This document shows, piece after piece, positions 4,195 through 41,514 of a stretch of 41,514 bases of DNA. The notes below the pieces were generated by a model. It made no database searches, had not been told where the DNA came from, and saw only the letters and a list, made by a program, of their open reading frames with translations. How positions within the stretch are numbered: the stretch's first letter is position 1; every line of letters starts with the position of its first letter. The DNA is taken from positions 1 to 41,514 of the IMG/VR virus record IMGVR_UViG_3300020021_000023. One strand, 5' to 3'. Made by a program: the position numbers and the translations under genes. This DNA is from a virus.

Positions 4195-4544
4195 TGTACA
4201 TACGTGGCCTCGCACAGTTCGACTACGACACGAATCCGGGCGCGGAGTTCAATATCAACACGTCCGCGATTCCAACGGCGACGGCCACACCCTCCCAGAT
4301 CGATGCGGCGTTGAACGCGATTGCAAAGTCTTCGTGTGCGGGGATTTGGAACCCGGCTGACCATTCGTGTTCCGATACCGGCGGTCCGTCGACGTGTCCA
4401 TCGGGTTATGTTGCCTCAGGATTTACGTGTGTTGCGGCTCCTGCAGCGGGCGGCGGGGGCGGTTCGTCGGCAATGCCCAGTTGGGTGATTCCGGTAGCTG
4501 CGGCATTGGGCGGGCTCTTTCTGCTGATGGGGATGAGGCGCTGA
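4194..4544 (+). CDS. Cys-containing membrane protein, MYIRGLAQ
   Basis: The 116-residue protein starts MYIRGLAQ. It carries the same kind of Cys pairs as the previous gene (SSCAGIWNPADHSC, STCPSGYVASGFTC), a Gly linker, one helix (WVIPVAAALGGLFLLMG) and the tail MRR. It is a likely paralogue of the 3886 gene. It overlaps both neighbours by TGATG. Confidence 0.75.
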   Translation: MYIRGLAQFDYDTNPGAEFNINTSAIPTATATPSQIDAALNAIAKSSCAGIWNPADHSCSDTGGPSTCPSGYVASGFTCVAAPAAGGGGGSSAMPSWVIPVAAALGGLFLLMGMRR

Positions 4545-4855
4545 TGTACAACCGGGGCTTGGGTCAAGATTGCTCGGCTGGTCCGGCGTGCGCTTGGTAC
4601 GACAACGTTTATGCGACTCAGGGCTGTCTGAATTGGTACGCGGCGTGCGATCCGACGAACCCGTTTTACGTGCTCAACACGAAGGGCCTGATCGTTGGCG
4701 GCGCGGGGGTGCTCGGTCAAACAGCCGGTAGCGCGGTTGCGGCGGCGGGTAATAGTTTTCTGGGGCTCGATCCGAGTTCGGGTATTCCCACATGGATTTG
4801 GGCGGTTGGACTTGTCGGGTTGGGCGTGATGCTCATTCCCAGATTGGTGAAGTGA
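4544..4855 (+). CDS. Membrane protein, MYNRGLGQ
   Basis: The 103-residue protein starts MYNRGLGQ and has four Cys in the first 40 residues. An Ala/Gly stretch follows, then a C-terminal helix (WIWAVGLVGLGVMLI) with RLVK. It belongs to the same set of one-helix proteins as its four upstream neighbours and is coupled to the preceding gene by TGATG. Confidence 0.75.
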   Translation: MYNRGLGQDCSAGPACAWYDNVYATQGCLNWYAACDPTNPFYVLNTKGLIVGGAGVLGQTAGSAVAAAGNSFLGLDPSSGIPTWIWAVGLVGLGVMLIPRLVK

Positions 4856-5295: not shown

Positions 5296-5544
5296 ATGTT
5301 GGCCTCGGTTAACAATTCGGGACGACGGGCGCTACCTGTTCGACAGGGTGGTGTGCGGGAATGCGGAGAACTTCAACCGCTGTTTGTGTTGGGCCGGATT
5401 CTCATCATGCTCAAAACCCTGACACCGGAAGAACGGGTCTACACGGTGCTCCGCGCCGAATCCCTTCTCAGGGTTTACGGTCACTACTTCCCTCCGCCGA
5501 CTGTCGAACATGATTACTCCGACGTGCAAGGAGGTGATCGATGA
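5296..5544 (+). CDS. Cassette protein between E2 and E3
   Basis: An 82-residue frame begins inside E2 as MLASVNNSG...LPVRQG and ends inside E3 as TVEH...GGDR. The body (LTPEERVYTVLRAESLLRVYGHYF) is predicted helical. Both termini are therefore encoded by the inverted boundary elements. Its stop overlaps the next start (ATGA at 5541). No family is recognised. Confidence 0.6.
   Translation: MLASVNNSGRRALPVRQGGVRECGELQPLFVLGRILIMLKTLTPEERVYTVLRAESLLRVYGHYFPPPTVEHDYSDVQGGDR
5299..5348 (+). repeat. Boundary element E2, forward
   Basis: TTGGCCTCGG...GTTCGACAGGG. Preceded by a T run and the ATG that opens the cassette ORF. Pairs with E3, about 150 bp downstream. Confidence 0.85.
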
Positions 5545-5550
5545 GGCCAA
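5501..5550 (-). repeat. Boundary element E3, reverse
   Basis: CTGTCGAAC...ATGAGGCCAA. The outer block contains both the stop of the cassette ORF and the ATG of the next gene. GGAGG lies inside the variable part, 10 nt before that ATG. Confidence 0.85.
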
Positions 5551-6457: not shown

Positions 6458-6875
6458 GTATCTTTACTACGTCACTCAGGAAGGTTACAAAGTCGGCGGT
6501 GCGCACGATACGAAAGCCGATGCTAATGCGGAGAAAGCGCGCTTCGTTAAACGTGCCAAAGAAATCGGCGCAAGGCGCAACTTCCGAATCAAGCGGGTGA
6601 AACAGATGGCAAATCCACAATTCGGCTCGTCCGCGTGGCGAAAGAAATACGCTGCAAAAGCAAAACGAAACCGGGCGGCGGCGGCGCGCAAGAACAAGCC
6701 CAAGCGCAAGGCGAAGCAACGCAAAAAGACCGCATCCCACCGGCGGGGAACGGCGGCAAAGAAGAAACGCATGGCTTCGATGATCCGTGGCAACCCGCCC
6801 GGCAACTGGACGAAGGTAAAGGCGTTCCGCGTGGTCAAGAAACACGGCCGCGCAGTGCTGGAGGTTCGCAAGTAG
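6450..6875 (+). CDS. Highly basic Lys/Arg-rich protein
   Basis: The 141-residue protein has a short ordered N-terminus (YLYYVTQEGYKVGGAHDTKADA) and then a Lys/Arg/Ala-rich tail (about 45-125) with a very high net positive charge, typical of nucleic acid condensation. It contains FGSSAWRKKYAAK, nearly repeated as FGSAAWRAKYAHK in the 10103 gene, plus RGNPPGNW. It is likely a DNA-binding core protein of the particle, inferred from composition only. Confidence 0.75.
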   Translation: MAKYLYYVTQEGYKVGGAHDTKADANAEKARFVKRAKEIGARRNFRIKRVKQMANPQFGSSAWRKKYAAKAKRNRAAAARKNKPKRKAKQRKKTASHRRGTAAKKKRMASMIRGNPPGNWTKVKAFRVVKKHGRAVLEVRK

Positions 6876-8523: not shown

Positions 8524-8696
8524 TGAATCTCGACAAAATGCGCGCGCTTGCGTTAAGGGACACGTGCCCGATGTGTTTTGGAGAACTCGATACAGGCTGG
8601 GAATGCAACAACTGCGGTTACGACGCAAAGCCGCTTGTCGATGGTGAAAAGCTAATCCGGGGACCGATGGCAGGAGAGGCCAATTCAACATGCTAG
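8520..8696 (+). CDS. Double-CxxC zinc ribbon protein
   Basis: The 58-residue protein has CPMCFGELDTGWECNNCGYD, a four-Cys zinc ribbon. It is a close paralogue of the protein at 16569-16730, which shares TCP-CFGELDTGWECNNCGYDA. The C-terminus AGEANSTC is encoded by element-like sequence E4. The start overlaps the methyltransferase stop (ATGATG). The role is unknown; such ribbons often bind nucleic acids or protein partners. Confidence 0.75.
   Translation: MMNLDKMRALALRDTCPMCFGELDTGWECNNCGYDAKPLVDGEKLIRGPMAGEANSTC
8634..8683 (-). repeat. Boundary element E4, reverse, unpaired
   Basis: CTTGTCGATGG...GAGAGGCCAA. No forward partner was found upstream, since the preceding bases are inside the methyltransferase. 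It may be a cassette remnant. Confidence 0.55.
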
Positions 8697-9754: not shown

Positions 9755-9859
9755 ATGTTGGCCTCGCCGAACAGTCCGGGACATCGAGATATGAAGGCTC
9801 GACAGTGTAGGATGTCTCGGATTTCGGCGCGGTGGGCACAACCAATTCAAGGAGGCTGA
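9755..9859 (+). CDS. Cassette leader ORF starting in E5
   Basis: A 34-codon frame opens as MLASPNSPGH inside E5 and stops 3 bp before the next ATG, with GGAGG in its last codons. It may encode a peptide or simply feed ribosomes into the 9863 gene. Confidence 0.35.
   Translation: MLASPNSPGHRDMKARQCRMSRISARWAQPIQGG
9758..9806 (+). repeat. Boundary element E5, forward
   Basis: TTGGCCTCGCCG...GCTCGACAG. The first ten bases of the outer block (GGCCTCGCCG) match its partner E6. Confidence 0.85.
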
Positions 9860-9862
9860 TAC

Positions 9863-10096
9863 ATGGCGGACGAACAGAAACCTGAAGTGCCGGAATTCGC
9901 GCAACCCCTGATCGACTATCTGGAAATGCAGTGGCATCCAGATCCGGCGCGGCATCCGGAGCAAGCCCAAAAGCTAATGGCTCTCCGCAGGGCGCTCGCT
10001 TTGCCCGATCCGCCAGAAGAAACGGCCCCTGTCGATGAAACGATAGATGACCTAGCCGCAAATTCCGGCGAGGCCAACAACCAGGAAGGAGAATAG
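9863..10096 (+). CDS. Small acidic cassette protein
   Basis: The 77-residue acidic protein (MADEQKPEVPEFAQPLIDYL...) is predicted helical, with EMQWHPDPARHPEQAQKLMAL. Its C-terminal ANSGEANNQEGE is read through E6. A GGAGG lies 8 nt upstream. It is the main gene of the E5-E6 cassette; function unknown. Confidence 0.65.
   Translation: MADEQKPEVPEFAQPLIDYLEMQWHPDPARHPEQAQKLMALRRALALPDPPEETAPVDETIDDLAANSGEANNQEGE
10029..10077 (-). repeat. Boundary element E6, reverse
   Basis: CTGTCGATG...CGGCGAGGCCAA. Pairs with E5 to bracket about 320 bp. Translated in frame as part of the 9863 protein. Confidence 0.8.
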
Positions 10097-11027: not shown

Positions 11028-11699
11028 ATGGGAGCAATTCCAGCAACAGCCGCCTTCATGGGCCGCAACACTAATGCCTTCGTGGCGAACACCGTCGATC
11101 AGGAACCGTATCTCTACTGGGATGCCGGAACGCTGATCACGGCGGCGGGATCGCAGGTACAGACTACGTACTTCGCGTTTGCGATTCCTTCCGGGCAGCC
11201 GAATCCGGCGCTCGGTGCCACCAACAACAACAACACGAAGTTGCAGACGAACATGCAGACGGGTAACCAGTTTCCCCCGCCTCGCTGCTTGCTGCTCAAC
11301 GCGATTTGCTTTCAGTACGCCTCGAACATGCTCAAAACGGACATCGACGCCATTGAGAACGGCGCGTATTTCGAGTTCAAAATCTCCGATAAGACCTTCT
11401 ACGAAGGATATCTGCGGGATTGCCCGGCGGGCGCGGGGCTGATGGGCGCTTCGACGAACAACGGCGAATCCGTCTTTACCAACGGCTGGCCTACTCCGGC
11501 GGGACGGCGCACTTTCGGAACGTGGGCAAAGTACATTCCGCCGTTGACGCGGTTCTCGATCAACGTATATTTCAACGGGTCGAATAACATCATTGCCGGG
11601 ACGGCGACGCCTCCGACGATGACGCCCTCGGGATCGGGCGGAACCGGAATGAACATCCGGATTGTGCTCGACGGTATCACCGCTCTTCCGGTGCAGTAG
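11028..11699 (+). CDS. Candidate major capsid protein (beta-rich)
   Basis: This 223-residue soluble protein has the strongest ribosome binding site in the operon (AAAGGAG). It is rich in Asn, Thr and aromatic residues and has alternating hydrophobic strands (FPPPRCLLLNAICFQYA, YFEFKISDKTFYEGYL, FSINVYFNG). Its C-terminal pattern (PLTRFSINVYF, then NIRIVLDGITALP) is shared in form with the 13369, 13850 and 15182 proteins. No HK97-type features (delta domain, protease, portal nearby) are seen. A single jelly roll is my inference, to be tested by structure prediction. Confidence 0.55.
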   Translation: MGAIPATAAFMGRNTNAFVANTVDQEPYLYWDAGTLITAAGSQVQTTYFAFAIPSGQPNPALGATNNNNTKLQTNMQTGNQFPPPRCLLLNAICFQYASNMLKTDIDAIENGAYFEFKISDKTFYEGYLRDCPAGAGLMGASTNNGESVFTNGWPTPAGRRTFGTWAKYIPPLTRFSINVYFNGSNNIIAGTATPPTMTPSGSGGTGMNIRIVLDGITALPVQ

Positions 11700-11719
11700 A
11701 CTGGGATTGTGGGGTTCGC

Positions 11720-11795
11720 TCCGGCCTGGTGTAATCGGCAAAAGCACGTCCAGGGGCATCCTTGGAAGATGTCGGTTCGAATCCGTTAGCTGGTG
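11720..11795 (+). ncRNA. tRNA-like sequence
   Basis: A 76-nt segment resembles a tRNA. The D-arm is GTGT-AATCGGCAAAA-GCAC, the anticodon-like stem is TCCAG/TTGGA, and the T-arm contains GGTTCGAATCC with the conserved TTCGAAT loop. Ends pair 5 of 7 (TCCGGCC/AGCTGGT). The anticodon loop is 8 nt (GGGCATCC) without T33, and the T-stem has a mismatch, so it is probably a decayed tRNA or tRNA mimic. CAT could be the anticodon remnant. Confidence 0.4.
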
Positions 11796-11864
11796 ATGAA
11801 CCTCACAGTTTGAATGGGCAGGGAGTGGCTTCTGGCCGCTACCCAAAACGCCTTGCCTGTTCTT

Positions 11865-11919
11865 TTGTCGGCCTCATCGGGCGTTCGCGTTCTGAGGGGC
11901 CTCCATCGTTCGACATGGG
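11865..11919 (+). repeat. Boundary element E7, forward (empty cassette, left end)
   Basis: TTGTCGGCCTCATCG...GTTCGACATGG. Its inner end GTTCGACATGGGCGGT is complementary, with one bulged T, to the inner end of E8 only 11 bp further on. Confidence 0.85.
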
Positions 11920-11940
11920 CGGTAGCTGTCTATAACCGCC

Positions 11941-11990
11941 CTGTCGAACCATCGGTATCCCATCTGGCCGGGATCTACGGGTAGGCCAGA
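11941..11990 (-). repeat. Boundary element E8, reverse (empty cassette, right end)
   Basis: CTGTCGAACC...GGGTAGGCCA. With E7 it forms a cassette of about 126 bp with no room for a gene. The variable part GGCCTACCCGTA (reverse complement) matches E1. Confidence 0.8.
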
Positions 11991-12007
11991 ACAAAAAGAA
12001 GCCCTCC

Positions 12008-12922
12008 ATGGCCTACACGCCCTTCACTAACGACTACTCCTCGGACATCGCAGGGCAGCAGCGTGCGCAAAACCGGCAAGCTTCACGCCGACAGCAAATA
12101 GCCCAAATCTTCGCGGACGGAAACAACGTTTTGGGTGGGCTGGTTCAGGAGTGCTGCTCCGATCCGGCCTTCGATGGGCAAGCGTTCTACGACGATACTT
12201 CAATCTTGGCCGCAAGTCTTGTGCCCGGGACCCCGGTAACGGCTGCGAATCCCGTCAATGGGATTTTGCAGCCGGCCGTACCTCTCACGCCGAACGACAT
12301 CCTCAGTAAGTCGCTGGGCTTTCCGGTTCGCGCTGGGGGTGGGAGATGGCCGCGGCCGCGCATCCCGGCAAGCTTTCTGCGCAACGGTGCGCGGCGCTAT
12401 CCGGATTACGGGCCGACGCTCGGGGCTCGAAGCTTGGTTCCAGATTGCCCGTGCGGGTTCGCCACTCAGCCGATTGTGATGTCCGCGCCTCAGCCTCCGG
12501 TATCGGTCGGCTCACCGATGCCAGCAGCTCCGCAGAATTGCCCGTATCCCGGTTGCTCGACGGGGAACATTTGCCTCGACCTAATCACCGGTTGCGTGTC
12601 GAATTCGCAGGTAACGCAGCAACAGGTGCAGGCTTGTACGCAGGCGGGTTATGCGACGTTTGGGAATTCAGGCACGTGGCTTTCGGCGATCATGCTCGGA
12701 TGCGGCGGAAATCTTCCTTACCTTGGGACTCCGTTGCCGAATCCTCCGCAGGCTGTGGGATCGATGGAAATGATGTTGCTGCAGGCGAATTCGAAGGGGG
12801 CGGCAGCGTCTTCGAAGGCGAGGGGCATGGGTGGGCTAGGACAATCTGATAATTCAAATGTCGGAGGGTTCTTGGCAGCGGTCGGAGTTTTTGGTATGCT
12901 CGTGTGGGCTTTGAAGAAATGA
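12008..12922 (+). CDS. Cys-rich surface protein with GLGQ motif and C-terminal helix
   Basis: The 304-residue protein has a Gln/Arg-rich helical N-terminus and a Pro/Cys-rich middle (VPDCPCGF, CPYPGCSTGNICLDLITGCV, QACTQAGY). A conserved GMGGLGQ follows, then a terminal helix (VGGFLAAVGVFGMLVWAL) ending KK. The GLGQ-plus-helix ending is the same as in the 1448-4855 cluster. Its TGA overlaps the ATG of a short MVWPTR leader. A membrane-anchored virion protein is likely. The start ATG lacks a strong ribosome binding site. Confidence 0.75.
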   Translation: MAYTPFTNDYSSDIAGQQRAQNRQASRRQQIAQIFADGNNVLGGLVQECCSDPAFDGQAFYDDTSILAASLVPGTPVTAANPVNGILQPAVPLTPNDILSKSLGFPVRAGGGRWPRPRIPASFLRNGARRYPDYGPTLGARSLVPDCPCGFATQPIVMSAPQPPVSVGSPMPAAPQNCPYPGCSTGNICLDLITGCVSNSQVTQQQVQACTQAGYATFGNSGTWLSAIMLGCGGNLPYLGTPLPNPPQAVGSMEMMLLQANSKGAAASSKARGMGGLGQSDNSNVGGFLAAVGVFGMLVWALKK

Positions 12923-12987
12923 TGGTTTGGCCTACTCGCGCAACGCACTGCGCGGCGGGTTTTGTGGGTTCGACATGGACGAATTGA
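12922..12987 (+). CDS. Short coupled leader ORF inside E9
   Basis: A 21-codon frame, MVWPTRATHC...VGSTWTN, begins at TGATG overlapping the previous stop and shares MVWPTR and VGSTW with the leader at 3104. Both are read through element sequence in the same frame. Confidence 0.4.
   Translation: MVWPTRATHCAAGFVGSTWTN
12926..12978 (+). repeat. Boundary element E9, forward
   Basis: TTTGGCCTACTCGCG...GTTCGACATGG, with an internal hairpin CGCGCA/TGCGCG. Pairs with E10. Confidence 0.85.
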
Positions 12988-13000
12988 GAGACATCACGAA

Positions 13001-13369
13001 ATGGGATCGGCGGCTATGATCATCCTTCGCCAGTTGTGCTGGTGGTTGCCGAAGTGCCGCAAATGTGGAAGCCGCGACCCTCTTTTCGCTGACCAATGTT
13101 TCAATTGCTCAGTCGCCGAATCGAAAGCGCAAATGTGGCGCGGCATCGCAGACGCTGCCGTTCAGTTGGCACCGTTGTTTGTTGAAGCTTTCACGCATCG
13201 AACCACCAGGAGCGTGCGACGCTTCGTGCGCAGAAATCCCCGGTTGCGATTGAAAGCCGCCCATTCCGATGAGTTGAAGGAATTGAGAAAAATGGCCGGG
13301 TTGCCTGAGTCCTCACCTGTCGAGCCTGCAAAGCCGACCGATGCTGCTGATAGCGGCGAGGCCAAGTAA
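13001..13369 (+). CDS. Zinc ribbon cassette protein
   Basis: This protein of about 122 residues has CRKCGSRDPLFADQCFNCS, a four-Cys zinc ribbon, after a WWLPK segment. A helical region and a basic patch (RSVRRFVRRNPRLRLK) follow, and the tail is DAADSGEAK, read through E10. The frame is open upstream through E9 (WVRHGR), so the true start could be TTG 12962, ATG 13001 or ATG 13016. Its TAA overlaps the next ATG. A nucleic-acid-binding accessory protein is plausible. Confidence 0.65.
   Translation: MGSAAMIILRQLCWWLPKCRKCGSRDPLFADQCFNCSVAESKAQMWRGIADAAVQLAPLFVEAFTHRTTRSVRRFVRRNPRLRLKAAHSDELKELRKMAGLPESSPVEPAKPTDAADSGEAK
13317..13366 (-). repeat. Boundary element E10, reverse
   Basis: CTGTCGAGCC...GGCGAGGCCAAG. 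Translated as VEP...SGEAK. GAGG sits 8 nt before ATG 13369. Confidence 0.85.
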
Positions 13370-14899: not shown

Positions 14900-15180
14900 A
14901 GTCTTTTAGGTCGGCCTCGTCACAATCGGGTGAGACGGTGCTGGTTCAGCAGCGACATGCAGGCGACGAGGTGCCCTGTCCGGACTGCAAAACCCTCATA
15001 AAATTGCAGCCTTCAGCGTGTACCTGCCGAACTTGCCGGGACACTCTGTACATACCTGAGCACCGCAATTCAAAGGGCAAGCACTGCCCCGCCAGTAGTC
15101 ACGGCTGGAAAGTCCCCGACCTGGTCGGACGCGATCTAGGTGGGTCACCGAGCACGGGAAGACCGGAGGCTAAAGCATAA
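14896..15180 (+). CDS. Zinc ribbon cassette protein (class B cassette)
   Basis: The 94-residue protein reads through E12 at its N-terminus (MKSFRSASSQSGETVLVQQR) and E13 at its C-terminus (LVGRDLGG...GRPEAKA). Between them is a zinc ribbon, CPDCKTLIKLQPSACTCRTC, followed by a second possible metal site (CPASSHGWK). The start overlaps the upstream stop (ATGA). Both ends being element-encoded shows that the elements here are part of the gene. Confidence 0.75.
   Translation: MKSFRSASSQSGETVLVQQRHAGDEVPCPDCKTLIKLQPSACTCRTCRDTLYIPEHRNSKGKHCPASSHGWKVPDLVGRDLGGSPSTGRPEAKA
14911..14959 (+). repeat. Boundary element E12, forward, class B left end
   Basis: TCGGCCTCGTCACAATCGGG...GGTTCAGCAGCGACATG. 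The inner block has the variant TTCAGCAGCGACA seen also in E26 and E53. Confidence 0.85.
15121..15174 (-). repeat. Boundary element E13, reverse, class B right end
   Basis: CTGGTCGGACGC...GGAAGACCGGAGGCTAAA. This variant is shared with E27 and E52, whose partners are also class B. Confidence 0.85.
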
Positions 15181-16404: not shown

Positions 16405-16569
16405 ATGTTGGCCTCGTCACAGTCGACCGCTTCGCCTGTTCCTCTGCCTGTTCGACATGGGCAAACTGAGCCTTGGACAATCGACTTGAATGATCCCAGA
16501 TTGCAGCCGGTCTACTGGTATGCAAATCGATTTCGTACCCAGTATGCCACCAAAGAAGGGGCGGACTGA
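16405..16569 (+). CDS. Cassette protein starting in E14
   Basis: The 54-residue frame is MLASSQSTASPVPLPVRHGQ... then DLNDPRLQPVYWYANRFRTQ. The whole first 20 residues come from E14. TGA overlaps the next ATG (TGATG). The downstream half looks like a genuine protein sequence, so the element seems to supply the N-terminus. Confidence 0.6.
   Translation: MLASSQSTASPVPLPVRHGQTEPWTIDLNDPRLQPVYWYANRFRTQYATKEGAD
16408..16460 (+). repeat. Boundary element E14, forward
   Basis: TTGGCCTCGTCACAGTCGACC...GTTCGACATGG. Shares GGCCTCGTCACA with its partner E15, 750 bp away. Confidence 0.9.
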
Positions 16570-16730
16570 TGGATCTCAAAAAGGTTCGTGCCGTGGCCCT
16601 GCAAGATACCTGCCCGATCTGTTTCGGAGAACTCGACACAGGCTGGGAGTGCAATAACTGCGGTTATGACGCTATGCCGCTCGTGACGGGCGCGCTACAA
16701 CCAATCGCAGACCCTCAGGGAGGGGTATAG
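16569..16730 (+). CDS. Double-CxxC zinc ribbon, paralogue of the 8520 gene
   Basis: The 53-residue protein has CPICFGELDTGWECNNCGYD, almost identical to the 8520 protein over 30 residues. The copies sit 8 kb apart, one beside a solo element and one inside a full cassette. Start and stop overlap both neighbours (TGATG; TAGTG). Function unknown. Confidence 0.75.
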   Translation: MDLKKVRAVALQDTCPICFGELDTGWECNNCGYDAMPLVTGALQPIADPQGGV

Positions 16731-16960
16731 TGCCGGAGAAAACCGCCAAACCCGCCGTCGTTCGCGCCAAGGCCGTGCATCCAGTCGTCCGCGACCTGAA
16801 GCAGTTCATCTCCGCGTGCGCACAACTGCGGGAACAAGCGCAGCCTGAAAAAGTCGTGGCGAACGTGGGGCGCGCGGTGGGCGAGTTCATCGGCGAGATG
16901 GATGAGGGGTCGAAAAAGCTTATAGGTGAAGTGGTCGGGATGTTCCGGGGGCGGCGATGA
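16730..16960 (+). CDS. Small helical cassette protein
   Basis: The 76-residue basic then amphipathic protein (GTG start, TAGTG overlap) has VRDLKQFISACAQLREQ and VGEFIGEMDEGSKKLIGEVVGMF. No family is recognised. Predicted all-helical; could be a small regulator or structural adaptor. Third gene of the E14-E15 cassette. Confidence 0.65.
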   Translation: MPEKTAKPAVVRAKAVHPVVRDLKQFISACAQLREQAQPEKVVANVGRAVGEFIGEMDEGSKKLIGEVVGMFRGRR

Positions 16961-17220
16961 TAATCTGGGCCGTGCTGAAGGATATAGGAATCCTCATCGC
17001 ACCGTCCAGGATTATCTGCCTTGGCGGCATGCATGAAGCGAAAGCGGGAATATTCGTGGCATCGGTGCGCGACGGCGAAAGTGGAGTGTTCGCGGACATC
17101 GATGAGGCTGAAACCTTCCTGGTCCACCAGTTGAGGAAAAGCATCCGGTCATTCACGCCCCTGACTGTCGAGCACTCCCCCGCCGACCAAGCCGCAAAGT
17201 GTGACGAGGCCAAACCATGA
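16957..17220 (+). CDS. Cassette protein ending in CDEAKP
   Basis: The 87-residue protein has alternating hydrophobic strands (IIWAVLKDIGILIAPSRIIC) and an acidic segment. Its tail TVEHSPADQAAKCDEAKP is encoded by E15. Start and stop overlap neighbours (ATGA). Unknown function. Confidence 0.65.
   Translation: MIIWAVLKDIGILIAPSRIICLGGMHEAKAGIFVASVRDGESGVFADIDEAETFLVHQLRKSIRSFTPLTVEHSPADQAAKCDEAKP
17165..17214 (-). repeat. Boundary element E15, reverse
   Basis: CTGTCGAGC...TGTGACGAGGCCAAA, followed by CC-ATG. GAGG is 7 nt before ATG 17217. Pairs with E14 around three complete genes and most of a fourth. Confidence 0.9.
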
Positions 17221-17852: not shown

Positions 17853-18082
17853 AGTCTTTTGGGTTGGCCTCATCGGGCGATCGCGCTGCGAACGAACCTG
17901 ACGGCGTTCGACATTCACGGGTTTCCTGGTGGCGAACCATGTTGTTTGAGGCGAGGTGCTGGTGGTGTTGGACGTATCCCAACATTGTCTTCATGCACCT
18001 GATGGGCTACAACCGGCAGACGATCGACTCACTTTGTGAAAGGCACGACGCGAAAATGCCGATTGATCCGAGGGGCGAATGA
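17849..18082 (+). CDS. Cassette protein with element-encoded N-terminus
   Basis: The 77-residue frame (GTG overlapping the upstream stop as GTGA) reads MKSFGLASSGDRAANEPDG-VRHSRV from E16, then an aromatic, Trp- and Cys-rich body (CWWCWTYPNIVFMHLMGY). It ends PRGE, overlapping the next ATG. The N-terminus shows the LAS...VRH signature. Possibly membrane-associated. Confidence 0.65.
   Translation: MKSFGLASSGDRAANEPDGVRHSRVSWWRTMLFEARCWWCWTYPNIVFMHLMGYNRQTIDSLCERHDAKMPIDPRGE
17864..17914 (+). repeat. Boundary element E16, forward
   Basis: TTGGCCTCATCGGGCGATCGCG...GTTCGACATT. Pairs with E17. The variable part resembles E7 and E47 (TCGGGCG, GATCGCGCT). Confidence 0.85.
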
Positions 18083-18222
18083 CCCGCGACCTTGCAGCAC
18101 TCGCGGCGCGCGTCCTCTTGATCTGGTCGACGTGGGCGTTTCATCGCCTGTCAGCACGAAAGCGGCAACGTGTCGAGAAGGCTCAGGCCGCACAAGCCGG
18201 AAACGAGAGCGAGGCCAAATAA
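18079..18222 (+). CDS. Small membrane cassette protein ending ESEAK
   Basis: The 47-residue protein has one hydrophobic segment (ALAARVLLIWSTWAF) and a basic-then-polar tail (RKRQRVEKAQAAQ) ending GNESEAK through E17. The start overlaps the previous stop (ATGA). Likely a one-helix inner membrane protein. Confidence 0.6.
   Translation: MTRDLAALAARVLLIWSTWAFHRLSARKRQRVEKAQAAQAGNESEAK
18170..18219 (-). repeat. Boundary element E17, reverse
   Basis: GTGTCGAGAAGG...GAGCGAGGCCAAA. GAGG lies 10 nt before ATG 18225. Confidence 0.8.
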
Positions 18223-18775: not shown

Positions 18776-18828
18776 TTTGGCCTCACCGACCATCGCTTTT
18801 CACGTGTGACGGTCGGGGTTCGACATGG
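18776..18828 (+). repeat. Boundary element E18, forward
   Basis: TTTGGCCTCACCGACCATCG...GTTCGACATGG with internal stem CCGACC/GGTCGG. Its outer 19 bases match partner E19 with one mismatch, the best within-pair match. Confidence 0.9.
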
Positions 18829-19313
18829 GGCCGATTATGAGCCGCATGGATAATTGGTTCCGAAAGAAAGACCCGCGGCGAATTCCTCCAAAACCTCTCG
18901 CTTCCCGAAACGACGAGAACCTTGAAAAGATGCAGTCAATCATCGACCGCCAGAAGTCCGGGGAAATTACTGGCGAGCAAGGATCGATTGAAGCCGATGA
19001 GATGTTCATGGAGGCATCCGGGGACGAACGTCTGATCTATTATTCCGACAGCACGGGACTAACCGCCGATTGGCACCCGGACCTGATGCTTTTTCCGCGG
19101 CCGGGCTCGACCGCGGCGAAGTTGATCCCCAGCAATACCGGGATTTTCGCGCGTGGTCCTCAGCGTGGATGGCTCTTCACGAAGCCCGGAGAAACCCCCG
19201 ACTGTATGCCGGATGTCCTGGAGCACTTCACTACCGGATCAAAGGGGTGGATCAACGGACCAGGGCCAACTGTCGAGCGCACCAAAGCCGACGCGCAGAG
19301 CGATGGTCGCTGA
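18825..19313 (+). CDS. Cassette protein of unknown function, 162 residues
   Basis: The start ATG may be 18825, inside the inner block of E18, or 18837. The protein has a basic N-terminus (WFRKKDPRRIPPKP), a helical acidic region (ENLEKMQSIIDRQKSGEITG) and a compact domain (LIYYSDSTGLTADWHPDLMLFPR, GWLFTKPGETPDC). The last residues VERTKADAQSDGR are encoded by E19 and the stop is the TGA of TGAGGCC. No family is recognised. Confidence 0.65.
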   Translation: MGPIMSRMDNWFRKKDPRRIPPKPLASRNDENLEKMQSIIDRQKSGEITGEQGSIEADEMFMEASGDERLIYYSDSTGLTADWHPDLMLFPRPGSTAAKLIPSNTGIFARGPQRGWLFTKPGETPDCMPDVLEHFTTGSKGWINGPGPTVERTKADAQSDGR

Positions 19314-19320
19314 GGCCAAC
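19270..19320 (-). repeat. Boundary element E19, reverse
   Basis: CTGTCGAGC...CGATGGTCGCTGAGGCCAA. GAGG is 7 nt before ATG 19323. Pairs with E18. Confidence 0.9.
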
Positions 19321-22131: not shown

Positions 22132-22187
22132 AAAAGAGGGGAGCACCCTGGAAGCTTATTCCTTGTCCTACGGGGTGCTCTCTTTTT
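22132..22187 (+). terminator. Rho-independent terminator
   Basis: AAAAGAG-GGG-AGCACCC (22132-22148) pairs with GGGTGCTCTCTTTT (about 22174-22187, GGG bulge), and the run TCTTTTT merges with the TTTGGCC of E20. It would end transcription of the 21774 gene just before the next cassette. Confidence 0.75.
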
Positions 22188-22239
22188 GGCCTCACCGCTA
22201 ATCGCGCTTCGCGTCGGTTGGTGAGGGTTCGACAATGGG
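22185..22239 (+). repeat. Boundary element E20, forward
   Basis: TTTGGCCTCACC...GGTGAGG-GTTCGACAATGG: a perfect 7-bp internal stem CCTCACC/GGTGAGG. GGGAGG follows as the ribosome binding site for GTG 22247. Pairs with E21. Confidence 0.9.
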
Positions 22240-22246
22240 AGGTTTT

Positions 22247-22512
22247 GTGGACGGGACAAAATCGAAGGGATACGGCTGCTGCGGGGAGGTCACGCGTCTC
22301 GCGAAGAGGGCTGTTGCGCGCTCGAATTGGTGGCGTGGATCGCCGGCGAGCCACACTCGGACCGTCCGCGATGCGCCTGTCCGGTTGCGTCAGATTTTAC
22401 GCGATCCTGGAATGACCTCCTGAATGACGATTCCCGGCAAAAACTGAAGCCGTATCTCCCTCGATTTGTCGGAACGGCCGGCGATGTTCGCGGATCTCTC
22501 CTGGATGCATAA
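22247..22512 (+). pseudogene. Frameshifted small protein (SDRPRC...SWNDLL family)
   Basis: From GTG 22247 the frame reads MDGTK and then needs one extra base in the AAAA run 22258-22261 to continue as IEGIRLLRGGH, then EEGCCALELVAWIAGEPHSD, RPRCACPVASDFTRSWND and PYLPRFVGTAGD, ending at TAA 22512. This domain style (helix, SDxPxC, WND, RLVGT) is known from small actinobacterial and phage proteins of unknown function. Without the shift, GTG 22247 gives an unrelated 58-residue frame that stops at 22423. It could be a sequencing error, a true mutation or programmed slippage. Confidence 0.6.
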
Positions 22513-22536
22513 ACTGGATAGTCGGTGAGGCCAAAA
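22485..22536 (-). repeat. Boundary element E21, reverse, inner block degenerate
   Basis: ...ATAGTCGGTGAGGCCAAAA. The outer block is intact and shares CCTCACCG with E20; the inner TGTCGAAC is lost. GAGG lies 8 nt before ATG 22539. Confidence 0.7.
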
Positions 22537-26171: not shown

Positions 26172-26223
26172 TTGGCCTCACCGAACCTGAATGTTGCACT
26201 TGAGCGGCGTGGGTTCGACAGGG
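26172..26223 (+). repeat. Boundary element E24, forward
   Basis: TTGGCCTCACCG...GTTCGACAGGG, followed by AGGG and ATG 26232. Internal pairing CCTCACCG/CGGCGTGGG. Pairs with E25. Confidence 0.9.
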
Positions 26224-26231
26224 AGGGTTAA

Positions 26232-26576
26232 ATGCCGATTTATATAACTGAGCGTTCAATCGCGGTACAGGCTCCGGTGTTTTATTGCGACACTTGCGGG
26301 GCGTCGATGGATTTGGTATCCGAACTGGCCGACTTTCGGCTGCTACGGACGGGCGGAAGAGCCGAGGGTATGGCTATGGCTTACGGCTGGCTGCATGAAA
26401 TACCCGGTATTCCGAATACGGTCGAGAAAGCTGTTGCCTCTGCTGCCGGGCGGGGTTGGGTCACGGAGGACATCCACGGAAAAATCATGGCAATATGCCC
26501 TTTGTGCAAAGTGAAGCCAATTGTCGCTGGTGAACATTCGGTCCAAGCCAAAAAGCCGGGCGAGGCCAAACCATGA
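26232..26576 (+). CDS. Zinc-binding cassette protein ending KPGEAKP
   Basis: The 114-residue protein has CDTCGASMD near residue 20 and CPLCKVKP near 94, two CxxC pairs that probably bind one zinc ion around a helical insertion (AYGWLHEIPGIPNTVEKAVA). Tail KKPGEAKP from E25. GGAGGG from E24 is the ribosome binding site. Nucleic-acid or protein adaptor, unknown. Confidence 0.7.
   Translation: MPIYITERSIAVQAPVFYCDTCGASMDLVSELADFRLLRTGGRAEGMAMAYGWLHEIPGIPNTVEKAVASAAGRGWVTEDIHGKIMAICPLCKVKPIVAGEHSVQAKKPGEAKP
26521..26570 (-). repeat. Boundary element E25, reverse
   Basis: TTGTCGCTGGTGAAC...GGGCGAGGCCAAA-CC-ATG. The inner block is the class B left variant (TGTCGCTGGTGAAC) placed at a right end. 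GAGG is 7 nt before ATG 26573. Confidence 0.85.
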
Positions 26577-28138: not shown

Positions 28139-28204
28139 ATGTCGGCCTCGTCACAAGCGGCAGGAACGTTGACGGTTCACCAGCGACACGGGGGCCGTCC
28201 GTGA
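28139..28204 (+). CDS. Cassette leader ORF from E26
   Basis: A 21-codon frame, MSASSQAAGTLT-VHQRHGGRP, is wholly element-encoded and its TGA overlaps GTG 28201. It has the same layout as the N-terminus of the 14896 protein. Confidence 0.4.
   Translation: MSASSQAAGTLTVHQRHGGRP
28141..28190 (+). repeat. Boundary element E26, forward, class B left end
   Basis: GTCGGCCTCGTCACAAGCGG...GGTTCACCAGCGACACGG. Matches E53 almost exactly in ACGTTGACGGTTCACCAGCG. Confidence 0.9.
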
Positions 28205-28572
28205 TCGTCCAGGATGGGGTTGAGGTTCTCGAATCTATCAGCCTGGCGTTCCCGAACATCTCTCCGGTGGACATGGCCCACCTGTTTGACCGTTGCAGCG
28301 TCAAGGTTACCGTCAACCATAAGCTGATCGCAGACCCCTCACTTAAGCACTTTGATCCGGTAGGAGATTGGCATCGCTTCGAACTCGAATACAAAGTAAA
28401 GCCGGGCGATTCTGTGGTAGTCCACTTCGACACCGTCCCCCCATTCACGACAGAATACGGCCTGACGCTTAATGCTGCTTTGAGTTTTCGCGGGAACATT
28501 AACGCCCTCCACCTGGCCGGACGCTTCAACGCCGAACGAAGCCACCCCGGAAGACCGGAGGCCAAAGCATAA
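28201..28572 (+). CDS. Class B cassette protein, 123 residues
   Basis: GTG start, mostly beta: VTVNHKLIADPS, FELEYKVKPGDSVVVHFD, YGLTLNAALSF. Tail HLAGRFNAERSHPGRPEAKA encoded by E27, matching the C-termini of the 14896 and 39580 proteins. Its TAA overlaps the M23 start. Function unknown. Confidence 0.65.
   Translation: MIVQDGVEVLESISLAFPNISPVDMAHLFDRCSVKVTVNHKLIADPSLKHFDPVGDWHRFELEYKVKPGDSVVVHFDTVPPFTTEYGLTLNAALSFRGNINALHLAGRFNAERSHPGRPEAKA
28513..28566 (-). repeat. Boundary element E27, reverse, class B right end
   Basis: CTGGCCGGACGC...GGAAGACCGGAGGCCAAA. Same class as E13 and E52. Confidence 0.9.
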
Positions 28573-32294: not shown

Positions 32295-32623
32295 AATTCA
32301 TCTCCTGGTCGAACGCGTCCCTCCGCTTTGGCGATGGCTGCGCGGGCGGTTTTATAGCGCTGAAGGGTGTCGTCCATTGAATCGTGATTGGCGTCGATGG
32401 CGATAATGTCCCTCAATGCGTCCAGCAGCTCCGGCGCGGCGGCGATCAGTCGGACGTTGGCTATTTCTTCGGCAGTCCAACCTTGATCCTTGTCGTCCTG
32501 GGGGCCGACCCCACATACCGGACGTCCGGAAGCATCCAGAATACCGATCACGTCAGCCCTCTCGAAGGATGCAAGATACGATTCTTCCATCCTCCACGGG
32601 CCAAGCCAATGCTTCGCGCTCAT
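32291..32623 (-). CDS. LIAAAPELL-type phage protein, 110 residues
   Basis: MSAKHWLGPWRMEESYLASF, then VRLIAAAPELLDALRDIIAI and ARAAIAKAEGRVRPGDEL. Paralogue of the 31911 gene; both contain CCCTCCGCTTTGGCGATGGC-type DNA at the same place. The ORF extends 26 codons upstream, but ATG 32623 overlaps the previous stop (ATGA) and is preferred. Confidence 0.7.
   Translation of the reverse strand: MSAKHWLGPWRMEESYLASFERADVIGILDASGRPVCGVGPQDDKDQGWTAEEIANVRLIAAAPELLDALRDIIAIDANHDSMDDTLQRYKTARAAIAKAEGRVRPGDEL
32303..32318 (-). repeat. Boundary element E37, reverse, inner half only
   Basis: TCCTGGTCGAACGCG with no GAGGCCAA. It supplies AGGAG for the GTG of the 31911 gene. Confidence 0.5.
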
Positions 32624-32874
32624 GCGGCCTCCGCGATTCCCAGCGTAGCTTCGGAGCGATTCAGCTTCGCGCGTAACTGCTGGTTTTGCTGTTTCATCCA
32701 AGTCAATTGTAAGTTGAGGTTTCGGATCAGGGCCAGCAGATCGTCGATCTCCCGCGCCCGTTCGGTTGCGTCTAGTGTGTTTGGGTCCATGCGTCGATTA
32801 TGCGATTCTGACGCGGGGCGGGGAATGGTACGGAAGTGCCGAATAAGAGGGGAAAACGCCTTAGTTCTTCTCAT
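32620..32874 (-). CDS. Coiled-coil protein, 84 residues
   Basis: The C-terminal half (EIDDLLALIRNLNLQLTWMK, QQNQQLRAKLNRSEATLG) is a coiled coil. Start either ATG 32874, 7-9 nt after the GAGG of E38, or ATG 32790. Dimerising regulator or scaffold possible; unknown. Confidence 0.6.
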   Translation of the reverse strand: MRRTKAFSPLIRHFRTIPRPASESHNRRMDPNTLDATERAREIDDLLALIRNLNLQLTWMKQQNQQLRAKLNRSEATLGIAEAA

Positions 32875-32877
32875 GGA

Positions 32878-32930
32878 TTTGGCCTCACCGGGTACTGGTC
32901 TGCGCGGGTGGGGTTGTGGGTTCGACATGG
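32878..32930 (+). repeat. Boundary element E38, forward
   Basis: TTTGGCCTCACCGGG...CTGCGCGGGTGGGG...GTTCGACATGG. Centre and inner block match partner E39. Confidence 0.9.
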
Positions 32931-32948
32931 GAAGGTTCCGTTGCATAA

Positions 32949-33218
32949 TTACCCGTTCAGGCGTCTCCACCGTTCTTTCGCTTTCTGCAGTAGGGCTACC
33001 ACTCGGAGTACTTCCGGGTCGGAGATCAGTGAATCGTCCGGCACTTTTCGAAGTTGGTCGTCAAACCGGTGTGGCTTAAAGCATTTGATACATATCCCGA
33101 TATCGCCGGAGCCCGGTAGTGTATCTCCGGAAACTCTGTCTGCCTCGTATCCGCACGACGGACAGGCGGTCCTGGGAACTTTCGATTCAAAGTTACAGTG
33201 TTTCAGTCGATTGGTCAC
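32949..33218 (-). CDS. Zinc ribbon cassette protein, 89 residues
   Basis: GTG start 10 nt after GGAGGAG in E39. RTACPSCGYEADRVSG and IGICIKCFKPHRFDDQ give a CxxC...CxxC ribbon, followed by a helical, basic C-terminus (LRVVALLQKAKERWRRLNG). Likely nucleic-acid binding. Confidence 0.7.
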   Translation of the reverse strand: MTNRLKHCNFESKVPRTACPSCGYEADRVSGDTLPGSGDIGICIKCFKPHRFDDQLRKVPDDSLISDPEVLRVVALLQKAKERWRRLNG

Positions 33219-33226
33219 AACTCCTC

Positions 33227-33279
33227 CATGTCGAACCCGCACCCCTCACGCGCAGCCGTCAAGGCCCGTGAGGCCAAAC
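33227..33279 (-). repeat. Boundary element E39, reverse
   Basis: CCATGTCGAACCC...ACGCGCAGCCGTC...CGTGAGGCCAAA. Good example of the class A consensus. Confidence 0.9.
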
Positions 33280-39037: not shown

Positions 39038-39073
39038 GAAAGGTTCCAAATGAATTATCCGCTTGTCAGCTTA

Positions 39074-39580
39074 TCACGTCACAAGCTCAACCGCTTTTTC
39101 CTCCGCGTATTTCCCCGGCTCCTCCAAATCGTTTCGCATTCCGGTGAAGACTTCGATGAGAATACATTCCAGGGCCGATCGTACGATGTCCTCGTGGGCT
39201 ACCATACCTTCGGCGGCATGATCCAGTGCGGCAACGGTATCGACTAACCTCTGTGAAAGGTTTCGACATTGCGCAGTCAGCGACTCATCCGAGAACCGCG
39301 CGTTCAACGTCTGCTGGTGAACCTCCCAGCGTTTCCTGTCGCGCTCCGCTTTTAGTTCCGGGTCAGTGGTTCTGAAGTTCCGCAGGAATAACCAGCCGCA
39401 ATAGAACAGGGCTTGCGCGTCCATGGCTCGGGCTACGTCGGGATGCTTTTCCTGGAAATGCTGAGACAGTCCTTCGATATACTTGCGCAGCCGTGCGTTC
39501 GGTTCGCCGATGACTTGTAAGCGGGGTCCTGTGAACTTCTGTCCGCAGAAGCATGTGGTGATGTCCGCGAGTTCGTTCAT
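39074..39580 (-). CDS. C2H2-like zinc protein, 168 residues
   Basis: Residues 9-45 contain TTCFCGQKFTGPRLQVIGEP...HFQEKH, a Cys-x-Cys...His-x4-His arrangement. A long helical part follows (RKRWEVHQQTLNARFSDESL, ALDHAAEGMVAHEDIVRSAL). Start ATG 39580 follows the class B end E52 and overlaps the previous stop (TAATG). Unknown role. Confidence 0.65.
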   Translation of the reverse strand: MNELADITTCFCGQKFTGPRLQVIGEPNARLRKYIEGLSQHFQEKHPDVARAMDAQALFYCGWLFLRNFRTTDPELKAERDRKRWEVHQQTLNARFSDESLTAQCRNLSQRLVDTVAALDHAAEGMVAHEDIVRSALECILIEVFTGMRNDLEEPGKYAEEKAVELVT

Positions 39581-40044
39581 TATGGTTTGGCCTCCGGTCT
39601 TCCGTCGTTCTGCGATTCGGCGGGGTCGCGTCCGACCAGGTCAAGCGCTGCTTGCACGACGGCCAAACGCTTTTCAGCGTCCCTCAATTGCTGCTTATAC
39701 AACGGCAGCACCATGTTCGCGGCCGCTTTCATGTCCGGACTTTCGCCGACAAAAAGCAGCGAGGTAGCTTCGATGGATGCTCGCAGGCTCTCCACTCTTT
39801 CTGTCGCTTCGTAAAGATCATCCGGACTGGTTGCCGGGCTTGCCTGCGAATCCCTCAACCTCTGTTCGAATTCGCAGCACAGATAATTTCTGATCGCGAT
39901 TTGCAGTGGAGCGATTCCCAAACCCGGAAAGACGCGCGGTAGAATCGCGCACAGTTCGGACGCTAACGTCTCAGCGGCTTCGATATCTTCGCGCAGATCA
40001 TCGTCGGAAGGCACCCAATAATACGGATCATCTGGCGGAAACAT
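39580..40044 (-). CDS. Class B cassette protein, 154 residues
   Basis: MFPPDDPYYWVPSDDDLRED, a helical middle (FEQRLRDSQASPATSPDDLY, SLLFVGESPDMKAAANMVLP, LYKQQLRDAEKRLAVVQ) and the E52 tail LVGRDPAESQNDGRPEAKP. GGAGGGATTCC from E53 precedes ATG 40044. The gene fills the E52-E53 cassette. Unknown. Confidence 0.7.
   Translation of the reverse strand: MFPPDDPYYWVPSDDDLREDIEAAETLASELCAILPRVFPGLGIAPLQIAIRNYLCCEFEQRLRDSQASPATSPDDLYEATERVESLRASIEATSLLFVGESPDMKAAANMVLPLYKQQLRDAEKRLAVVQAALDLVGRDPAESQNDGRPEAKP
39586..39640 (+). repeat. Boundary element E52, forward, class B right end
   Basis: TTTGGCCTCCGGTCTTCC...GCGTCCGACCAGG. Same class as E13 and E27; partner E53 is the matching left class. Confidence 0.9.
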
Positions 40045-40053
40045 GGAATCCCT

Positions 40054-40103
40054 CCTGTCGCTGGTGAACCGTCAACGTCTCGCCCGATTGTGACGAGGCC
40101 AAA
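40054..40103 (-). repeat. Boundary element E53, reverse, class B left end
   Basis: CCTGTCGCTGGTGAACCGTC...GATTGTGACGAGGCCAAA. Nearly identical to E26 over the inner 20 bases. Confidence 0.9.
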
Positions 40104-40109
40104 CCATCA

Positions 40110-41514
40110 TTACGCCGCACTGTTTCCTCCAATCTCAATGACTCCATCACTAGGTGCTGACTCTTCCTCCTCATCCACTGGTAGCGTAAAGAACTGTTCT
40201 AAAAACGCCATGCGTTGCTGCTCTGGTCCAATCTCGACACTCAACTGCGGATGCTCGGCGATCATCTGCCCAAGCACACCGGGTCCAAGCTCACGCCGCA
40301 TATCTGCCCACTTGAACATGCCATGTCCTTCTAAGAACCAATCCCGGAAGTAGAACCCTCCCAAGCCGTCCGGATCTTTGAAGCGCTCCATCATTTGCGG
40401 GGCAATGTGAACAACGAACATTCCCCACTTGTTGCAGTGCTGCAAGAACGTCCGCTGTTCAGGCGTCAGATTCGGGTCTTCGGCCGGCGCCGTCGTTGCT
40501 GTTGTGGCTTGTGGCGGCGGGCCGTGTGGTGGCGGTGCGGCGGGGAGTGCTTGCGGGTTCGTCTGCGGCGGCGTCCAGGCGTGCGGGGCGGGCTTCGACT
40601 TGCCGTTGTTGATCATCTCCAGTACTCCGGGAATTGCTTCAGACACGCCCTCAACAATGGTTTGCAGCGGGTTTTCCCACCATGCACCGGGCTTCGAATC
40701 GCCCATCAGTTCCTTCGCGGCAAGCAGGGCAGGCTGGATTTCCTTGATCTGCTCGAGCAGGTTCTTCTGGGGGGTGGTTGCCTTGTTGCGGAGTTCCTTC
40801 AACTCTTCGCGAAGCTCTTTCCGATCGGCGCGGAGTTCTTCGATTATCAGATTGAAGGCTGAATTGTCCGGCGGCAGGGGCGCGGCCGGTGCGGGCTTGT
40901 TCAGCGCGGCATCGATCAACTTCCCGACCAGAACATCCGAACCGCTGCTCTTGCTCGCGAACCGCTCTACCATGTCCATCTGCTCTTTCATGCTGAACCC
41001 TGGGGGATACATGTTAGCGACTCCGTTCTGTTGTTGCTGCTGCGCGATTAGCTTCGGTCCTGCCCACTTCCAAACTTCGTTTGCGGGATCGTCGATCCAG
41101 TCTCCAGGCGGAACCCGCGGCGGATAGTCCATGTTCAGGATGTCGAAATATTCCTTCGCCCATCGCTTGTACTCCCCCGTCGTCTGGTCGATGTTCAGGA
41201 TATCGATGCGATAGACGCCCGAACCCTCGTCGAGCATGATTCGATCCTTGTCGAAAGGACCCGCATACTTGCGGATGTTGATCGGCCTTCCTCCGCTCCG
41301 GCGGTCGACCGTGGGCGCGACTCGATAGAGGTAGGCGATAGTGCGATCCCAGTCCGCGGGCTTGTAGTTTGCGAGTTCGAGCCAGATATCGCGATCGACG
41401 CGGGTTCTTGCGGCGGCGGGCAGCGGTTCGTCTTCATCGTCGGTTGGCAGGGGTGGGGGCGGCTGATTATTCCGGGTTTTCGATCCCTTCGGCCTTCCCG
41501 GACGCCTTTTCTCA
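40110..41514 (-). CDS. Junction-spanning protein, main part (continues into 204-1)
   Basis: The larger part of the 489-residue protein. After the junction come RDIWLELANYKPADWDRTIA and KYAGPFDKDRIMLDEGSGVY. Residues at about 243-285 form a coiled coil (IIEELRADRKELREELKELR) and a Pro/Ala-rich linker follows at about 330-372. The C-terminal domain has FLQHCNKWGMFVVHIAPQMM and FYFRDWFLEGHGMFKWADM, ending acidic. The N-terminal AT-hook-like patch, coil and linker suggest a DNA-associated adaptor or scaffold. It is the largest minus-strand gene and has no recognised family. The TAA is followed by E53. Confidence 0.8.
   Translation of the reverse strand, partial: EKRRPGRPKGSKTRNNQPPPPLPTDDEDEPLPAAARTRVDRDIWLELANYKPADWDRTIAYLYRVAPTVDRRSGGRPINIRKYAGPFDKDRIMLDEGSGVYRIDILNIDQTTGEYKRWAKEYFDILNMDYPPRVPPGDWIDDPANEVWKWAGPKLIAQQQQQNGVANMYPPGFSMKEQMDMVERFASKSSGSDVLVGKLIDAALNKPAPAAPLPPDNSAFNLIIEELRADRKELREELKELRNKATTPQKNLLEQIKEIQPALLAAKELMGDSKPGAWWENPLQTIVEGVSEAIPGVLEMINNGKSKPAPHAWTPPQTNPQALPAAPPPHGPPPQATTATTAPAEDPNLTPEQRTFLQHCNKWGMFVVHIAPQMMERFKDPDGLGGFYFRDWFLEGHGMFKWADMRRELGPGVLGQMIAEHPQLSVEIGPEQQRMAFLEQFFTLPVDEEEESAPSDGVIEIGGNSAA
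41376..41514. repeat. Terminal direct repeat, right copy (circular overlap)
   Basis: Counterpart of 1-139; identical over 41389-41514. Removing one copy joins the junction-spanning reading frame without a shift. Confidence 0.9.

Follow-up and report, generated by a model that had tools for sequence, protein, structure and literature searches.

The 122-bp segment at positions 11868-11989 of the IMG/VR virus record IMGVR_UViG_3300020021_000023 (the window hereafter, analysed over its whole length of 41,514 nucleotides) consists of two inverted copies of a ~48-bp repeat, E7 and E8, facing each other, and we consider it somewhat probable, at roughly 55%, that it represents the cargo-free form of an intergenic, directional platform, the E cassette, which would be standard in its clade. 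Each cassette comprises a leader and a tail end, as imperfect inverted copies of one ~50-bp element, and sits exactly between the stop of one gene and the start of the next, in operon direction; according to this reading, genes could be gained, exchanged or lost between these common ends with the translation of the neighbours unbroken. The most likely driver would be homologous recombination involving E copies carried by relatives that infect together, a route also proposed for the PeSL of T4-like phages, and the inner hairpin of an empty unit would be a consequence of two inverted inner ends meeting.

The E7/E8 unit and its surroundings

The preliminary description of E7 facing E8, with a 15-bp stem, one bulge and an 11-nt loop, matches the sequence exactly: GTTCGACA (11908-11915) is followed by a bulged T, GGGCGGT (11917-11923), the loop AGCTGTCTATA, ACCGCCC (11935-11941) and TGTCGAAC (11942-11949). 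Two of its measurements were revised, as the inner blocks, placed ~20 bp apart, are separated by 26 bp, and the outer ends, set at 11865 and 11990 (126 bp), were corrected to 11868 and 11989. The predicted RNA fold of the inner hairpin reaches -25.8 kcal/mol (z -6.7, with 0 of 200 shuffles equally good) and the DNA fold a z of -7.5, and the hairpin pattern occurs once in the window and in none of 100 shuffles. The E8 outer tail block reads GTAGGCCAG in place of GAGGCCAA, and the next start codon lies 18 nt on; given this degenerate block and this distance, the E7/E8 copy is without the usual ribosome-binding layout. The coordinates of this and the other features of the window are collected in Table 1.

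Table 1. Positions of the E7/E8 unit, its neighbours and further E-bounded features in the window.
Feature	Position	Strand	Description
E7	11868-11915	+	leader-type end; outer block TCGGCCTC, inner block GTTCGACA; profile match E=1.2e-5
Core of E7/E8 unit	11916-11941	+	26 bp, cargo-free
E8	11942-11989	-	second end, inverted; outer block degenerate, GTAGGCCAG; profile match E=0.039
Inner hairpin	11908-11949	+	15 bp, one bulged T, 11-nt loop; RNA and DNA folding
Upstream gene	11028-11699	+	223 aa; putative virion (capsid-like) protein; kept in E-bearing and E-less relatives
Non-coding structured gap	11700-11867	+	between putative virion gene and E7/E8 unit
Downstream gene	12008-12922	+	304 aa
Single tail end, 58-aa cargo ORF	8636-8683	-	same junction empty in G005, G007, G008, G009
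Unit, 63-aa ORF	5299-5550		close relative G005: different, longer cargo
Unit, 77-aa ORF	9758-10077		G005: nearly empty 133-bp unit
Unit, cargo ORF ends in tail end	12927-13365
Unit	14911-15173
Unit	16408-17213
Unit	17864-18218
Unit, 158-aa ORF	18777-19319
Unit	22186-22534
Unit, 114-aa ORF	26172-26569		G008 same junction: 142-bp empty unit
Unit, 123-aa ORF	28142-28565
Unit, minus-strand half	32879-33277
Unit, 154-aa ORF, minus strand	39587-40102

The unit is preceded by a gap that is itself strongly structured (fold z -3.7 for 11700-11849), and nearly all relatives, E-bearing or E-less, have a gap of ~85-200 nt after the putative virion gene. Structured gaps were likewise located 3' of this gene at 44210-44342 in G001, 32647-32784 in G006, 6578-6711 in G007 and 32347-32489 in G008; a hairpin in that gap, GGTGGGAGCGGTAGTTCTGGGAGGAACGTTCTCCAC, is common to the E-bearing relatives, and the E-less ones have other structured-looking gaps. 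The tRNA-like neighbour proposed earlier is not recognisable as a tRNA by either program used: ARAGORN reported none in the window, and the Rfam search gave nothing at E<=1 in 11650-12050, so that the structured gap is assigned to no Rfam family. Nor is this the sole long non-coding gap of the virion region, as had been stated, since E-bounded units also lie at 5299-5550, 9758-10077, 12927-13365 and 14911-15173.

An ordinary transcription terminator, or a chance hairpin after the putative virion gene, would be in keeping with a stem in the non-coding gap adjoining that gene; however, both arms are members of the E family, the hairpin is not followed by a T-run, and the position of the E pair is conserved in relatives, which makes this account most improbable. 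Across E, no promoter or terminator signature was found, sigma-70 promoters being no more frequent than in shuffles, with a promoter of non-sigma-70 type possible.

Regarding the nature of these genomes, we take them to be viral from sequence features, namely the HerA/FtsK-type ATPase of the relatives, which was not found in the window, and the putative virion protein, which has no usable fold. The structure model of the latter was too poor for use (mean pLDDT 34), sequence searches of the PDB were empty, and among cultured phages neither the window DNA nor this protein was matched. A relative of the putative virion gene lies on a 3.3-kb contig (L080) binned with a Candidatus Sulfotelmatobacter (Acidobacteriota) MAG, a weak hint of an acidobacterial host. 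A 138-bp direct repeat (98%) at the window ends (2-139 and 41377-41514) suggests a circular or terminally redundant genome; despite this end repeat, the window lacks the ATPase and the serine recombinase present in the large relatives. In its minus-strand half, near-duplicate neighbouring segments that include E arms (29802-29934/30288-30420 and 33809-33882/34116-34189) are a recent local duplication. Among the relatives, an in-frame interruption of ~1 kb close to the P-loop of the HerA-like ATPase ORF in G004 (L021; 16045-18045) is a candidate intein; G006 carries a full and a partial second ATPase copy adjacent to each other (39063-40133 and 40478-40816, minus strand), the longer match with one in-frame TGA; G008 is the only relative in which a transposase of the IS1595 family (56137-56562) and a protein with sigma-70 region 4 (4544-4684) were found; and one tRNA gene each was located in L021 (5748-5823, Glu), L026 (17120-17194, Thr) and L051 (13653-13726, Met).

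The E family and the architecture of its cassettes

E spans ~48-50 bp and comprises an outer block, TTGGCCTC, a variable middle and an inner block near GTTCGAC(A/C), the two blocks lying ~40-42 bp apart, start to start, in nearly every copy. A total of 333 copies was collected in 10 contigs, this figure including profile matches and window copies added by hand, with ends refined. By profile counts there are 79 copies in G008 (63 kb), 72 in G001, 61 in G006, 44 in the window and 30 in G004, and the control search of reversed sequences from seven records returned one match below E 1. The relatives were gathered by pattern and protein scans; all genomes are metagenomic, some fragmentary, and genes were called with a simple in-house model. 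In more distant relatives with the same operon, E is either missing or no more frequent than expected by chance, and its spread is therefore within one clade; no copy was found within the 5.5 kb of L092, a relative at 62% identity, or in the bacterial genomes scanned, and the open-access literature yielded no description of the repeat.

The orientations of E copies alternate (137 +- and 131 -+ neighbours, versus 55 alike), and 128 facing pairs, or units, were delimited, with 12-30 in each of the larger records and cores of 9 to >1000 bp. From the upstream stop to TTGGCCTC the distance is most often 4 nt, from GAGGCCAA to the ATG most often 3 nt (49/113), and outer ends lie mostly within 3-11 nt of gene stops or starts; each facing pair is thus a unit placed exactly between genes. 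Many junctions are without E. The units also have a polarity: among those with one end of type C or B and the other of type D or A, the leader type (D/A) precedes the tail type (C/B) along the genes in all 50 and follows it in none.

This placement bears on the possibility that a viral DNA-binding protein engaged in recombination, genome organisation or partition binds to the E copies, which would flank genes only since intergenic space is safe. The end blocks, ~41 bp apart in nearly every copy and strongly conserved in both orientations, whether coding or not, would agree with such sites, but the exact abutment to stops and starts and the strict leader/tail polarity are left unaccounted for and a candidate protein is missing; we regard this account as very unlikely.

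In many units the cargo ORF begins 7-14 nt inside the leader end, preceded by an SD-like AGGAGG, and in many its stop lies at -6, +4 or +7 relative to the outer tail end; the tail end therefore codes for a C-terminal tail in one of three frames, and conservation is accordingly at the nucleic-acid level. In a filled cassette, the leader end would provide the cargo gene with an SD-like sequence just inside the inner block (CGTTCGACC-AGGAGG-start), the tail end would encode the last residues and the stop of the cargo, and the tail outer block GAGGCCAA, usually a few nt before the ATG, may act as the ribosome-binding site of the downstream gene. Against these translational roles, SD-like motifs are only moderately commoner at leader inner ends (76/113) than at tail inner ends (55/113). 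Conservation of the outer block is about as high at leader ends, where it plays no part in ribosome binding, and this leaves a further role unexplained.

Given the strict polarity and the stop/start placement, a role at the RNA level is a real possibility. E would in that case be an intercistronic RNA element, in which the outer blocks TTGGCCTC...GAGGCCAA pair and mask the downstream ribosome-binding site until a ribosome terminating upstream opens the pairing, the inner hairpin silencing the inner SD when cargo is lacking. Such an element would explain why empty units also follow the operon polarity and why an outer block lies a few nt after the upstream stop and another a few nt before the downstream start, and it would agree with the strong inner stem and with D and C inner arms that differ mainly at two positions, G-U pairs being kept. 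Nevertheless, the arms of a unit show no covariation beyond that of shuffled arms, which speaks against it, as do the inner stems of two G001 units, which contain an A-C mismatch, and the many filled units whose inner ends do not pair; we judge this alternative distinctly unlikely. Long-range pairing of the two arms as the main constraint on E was considered separately and rejected, same-unit arms matching no better than those of other units.

Turnover of content between common ends

Relatives support the earlier reading of the E7/E8 segment as an empty unit. All five E-bearing relatives that cover this junction (G001, G002, G006, G007 and G008) carry a unit there, nearly empty in G008, built around a 71-nt core in G007, and enclosing a short ORF in G002 and a basic-protein gene (MALKFGSPAWRKKYAPKK...) in G006 and G001, the latter two being the cargo-bearing counterpart that had been suggested as a check. 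Since relatives have both ends together at the same junction, E7 and E8 are not unrelated remnants of two units, the objection foreseen in the preliminary description; the E7/E8 copy itself may formerly have held cargo. In G005, G008 and G009, a gene related to the basic one is found elsewhere, away from any unit; the closest relative, G005, ends before this junction. Conversely, none of the 10 E-less records covering it (L068-L072, L075-L079) has an E unit there, most having just the gap of ~85-200 nt, and L068 a longer insert without E.

Cargo-free units constitute a recurrent class across genomes. Seventeen units of 137-142 bp, found in G001, G006, G007, G008 and G009, have the common core AGGAG..GGTTTTGTCTTCGCGGGTAGAAAA..CTCCT, an 18th of 141 bp (G008 26267) is without it, and eight further cargo-free units measure 105-133 bp, including the 122-bp E7/E8 unit.

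Content varies at orthologous junctions. The 271 comparisons made comprise 110 of nothing with nothing, 64 of unit with unit, mostly of different lengths, and 34 of unit with nothing, the remainder being single E with nothing (31), with a unit (26) or with single E (6). At J1 (window 8523|8690), the genes of G005, G007, G008 and G009 overlap by 7 nt, and three distinct small inserts, each closed by a tail E, are found in the window, G006 and G002. At J2 and J4, the units of the window and G005 differ in length and content; when their arms were compared as a test of whole-unit replacement, the right arms looked unrelated and the left arms borderline. The genes on either side of a 138-bp unit of G008 are contiguous, overlapping or separated by no more than a few nt in G009, G006, G001 and G002.

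Clean present/absent junctions between nearly overlapping genes are also what a non-autonomous transposon family (MITE-, REPIN- or MPME-like) would leave, with E copies as terminal inverted repeats for a transposase or recombinase acting in trans and the 137-142 bp units as the minimal mobile form. The uniformity of that class, with its common core at non-orthologous junctions of several genomes, and the ~50-bp inverted ends, an arrangement that E7/E8 displays, would accord with this origin. Transposition, however, predicts target duplications and matched, co-inherited ends, and neither was seen: in 87 units there was no target-site duplication (2-9 nt matches were no commoner than in shuffled flanks), arms within one unit were no more alike than arms between units, and arm co-inheritance was weak (Mantel r 0.16-0.29). 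Further, units are always oriented with the operon, and no transposase or recombinase is linked to E, the IS1595 transposase being confined to G008. We therefore hold transposition to be unlikely, and the MITE-like core proposed earlier is not sustained in the strict sense, the ends being unmatched, without target duplication or linked transposase, in strict 5'-to-3' operon polarity and independent of the serine recombinase. The candidacy of the latter as the E enzyme is weakened by its absence from the E-rich window and its presence in 7/8 E-less relatives.

The lack of target duplications and of matched, co-inherited ends, together with a recombinase untied to E, favours exchange of cassettes by recombination between common ends, the route supposed for the directional cassette, whose ends would be shaped so that translation continues. 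In three G001 units, the tail arms are 82-92% identical and the leader arms 60-68%, as would be expected if the ends recombine separately. A broader version of this proposal, which we advance only tentatively and hold to be rather doubtful, is that operons throughout the lineage are built on one direction-aware docking cassette, whose two different, inverted ends carry translation signals for both guest and neighbour, with genes plugged in and out at fixed junctions and a ~140-bp blank, here in a 122-bp variant, as the default filler.

Comparison with known systems

The PeSL cassettes of T4-like phages were reportedly described by Arbiol et al. in 2010 and Comeau et al. in 2014. As summarised from other work in PMC4503421, PeSLs are mobile regulatory cassettes with an early promoter and a terminator stem-loop, and the features outlined there that resemble E are short intergenic stem-loop cassettes, many per genome, in variable regions, and gene shuffling between relatives (PMC4503421). 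E, in contrast, has neither promoter or terminator signature nor T-run, the cargo of its units is enclosed by two inverted ~50-bp ends that differ in type, and it also occurs in the virion operon.

The SAS and ESAS of Cluster K mycobacteriophages are genome-wide repeats tied to translation starts, SAS being a one-sided upstream element with a 4-13 bp spacer at non-structural genes, and ESAS containing imperfect inverted repeats of 17 bp, separated by a spacer of variable length and located immediately before genes (PMC3203893). E is likewise spread over the genome and linked to starts but constitutes a pair of ends enclosing cargo, and the absence of the SAS consensus GGGATAGGAGCCC from the window argues against membership. 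Mycobacteriophage MPMEs and the YungJamal gene 60 insertion are likewise small, bear inverted repeats and lie between phage genes, and closely related phages differ in having them; MPMEs, of ~440 bp, have their own 123-residue ORF (PMC4351075). On the basis of this published description they are set apart from E, whose units differ in their cargo or lack it, with 12-30 facing pairs in each of the larger records.

MITEs and REPINs resemble E as short inverted-repeat units without cargo, of a uniform size class and in many copies, but E is without target duplication, its ends are unmatched, it follows operon polarity, and most of its units have cargo genes. In lambdoid phages, boundary or linker sequences, which are conserved short sequences at junctions, have been proposed to guide modular exchange; E differs in that a single repeat family recurs, as inverted pairs, at dozens of junctions. 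Integron attC sites are comparable to E in that gene cassettes are bounded by imperfect inverted repeats of variable length, yet the attC core GTTRRRY (/ RYYYAAC) is essentially absent from E outer ends (2/333), and no integrase was found among the Pfam matches of the window's proteins.

The exchange of single genes in tight phage operons without breaking their neighbours is a long-standing question, and dozens of standard junctions per genome, with orthologous ones empty, filled or re-filled and with a uniform empty form, make the exchange mechanism directly testable; E units also mark accessory-gene sites in a group of viruses in which no cultured representative was found. In their working, PeSLs are the closest to E, followed by SAS/ESAS and then by phage mobile elements. 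Since membership in PeSL, SAS, MITE and attC is in each case contradicted by the feature tested, we place the E cassettes as a variant among modular-exchange cassettes, and give a minority chance to their being a category of their own.
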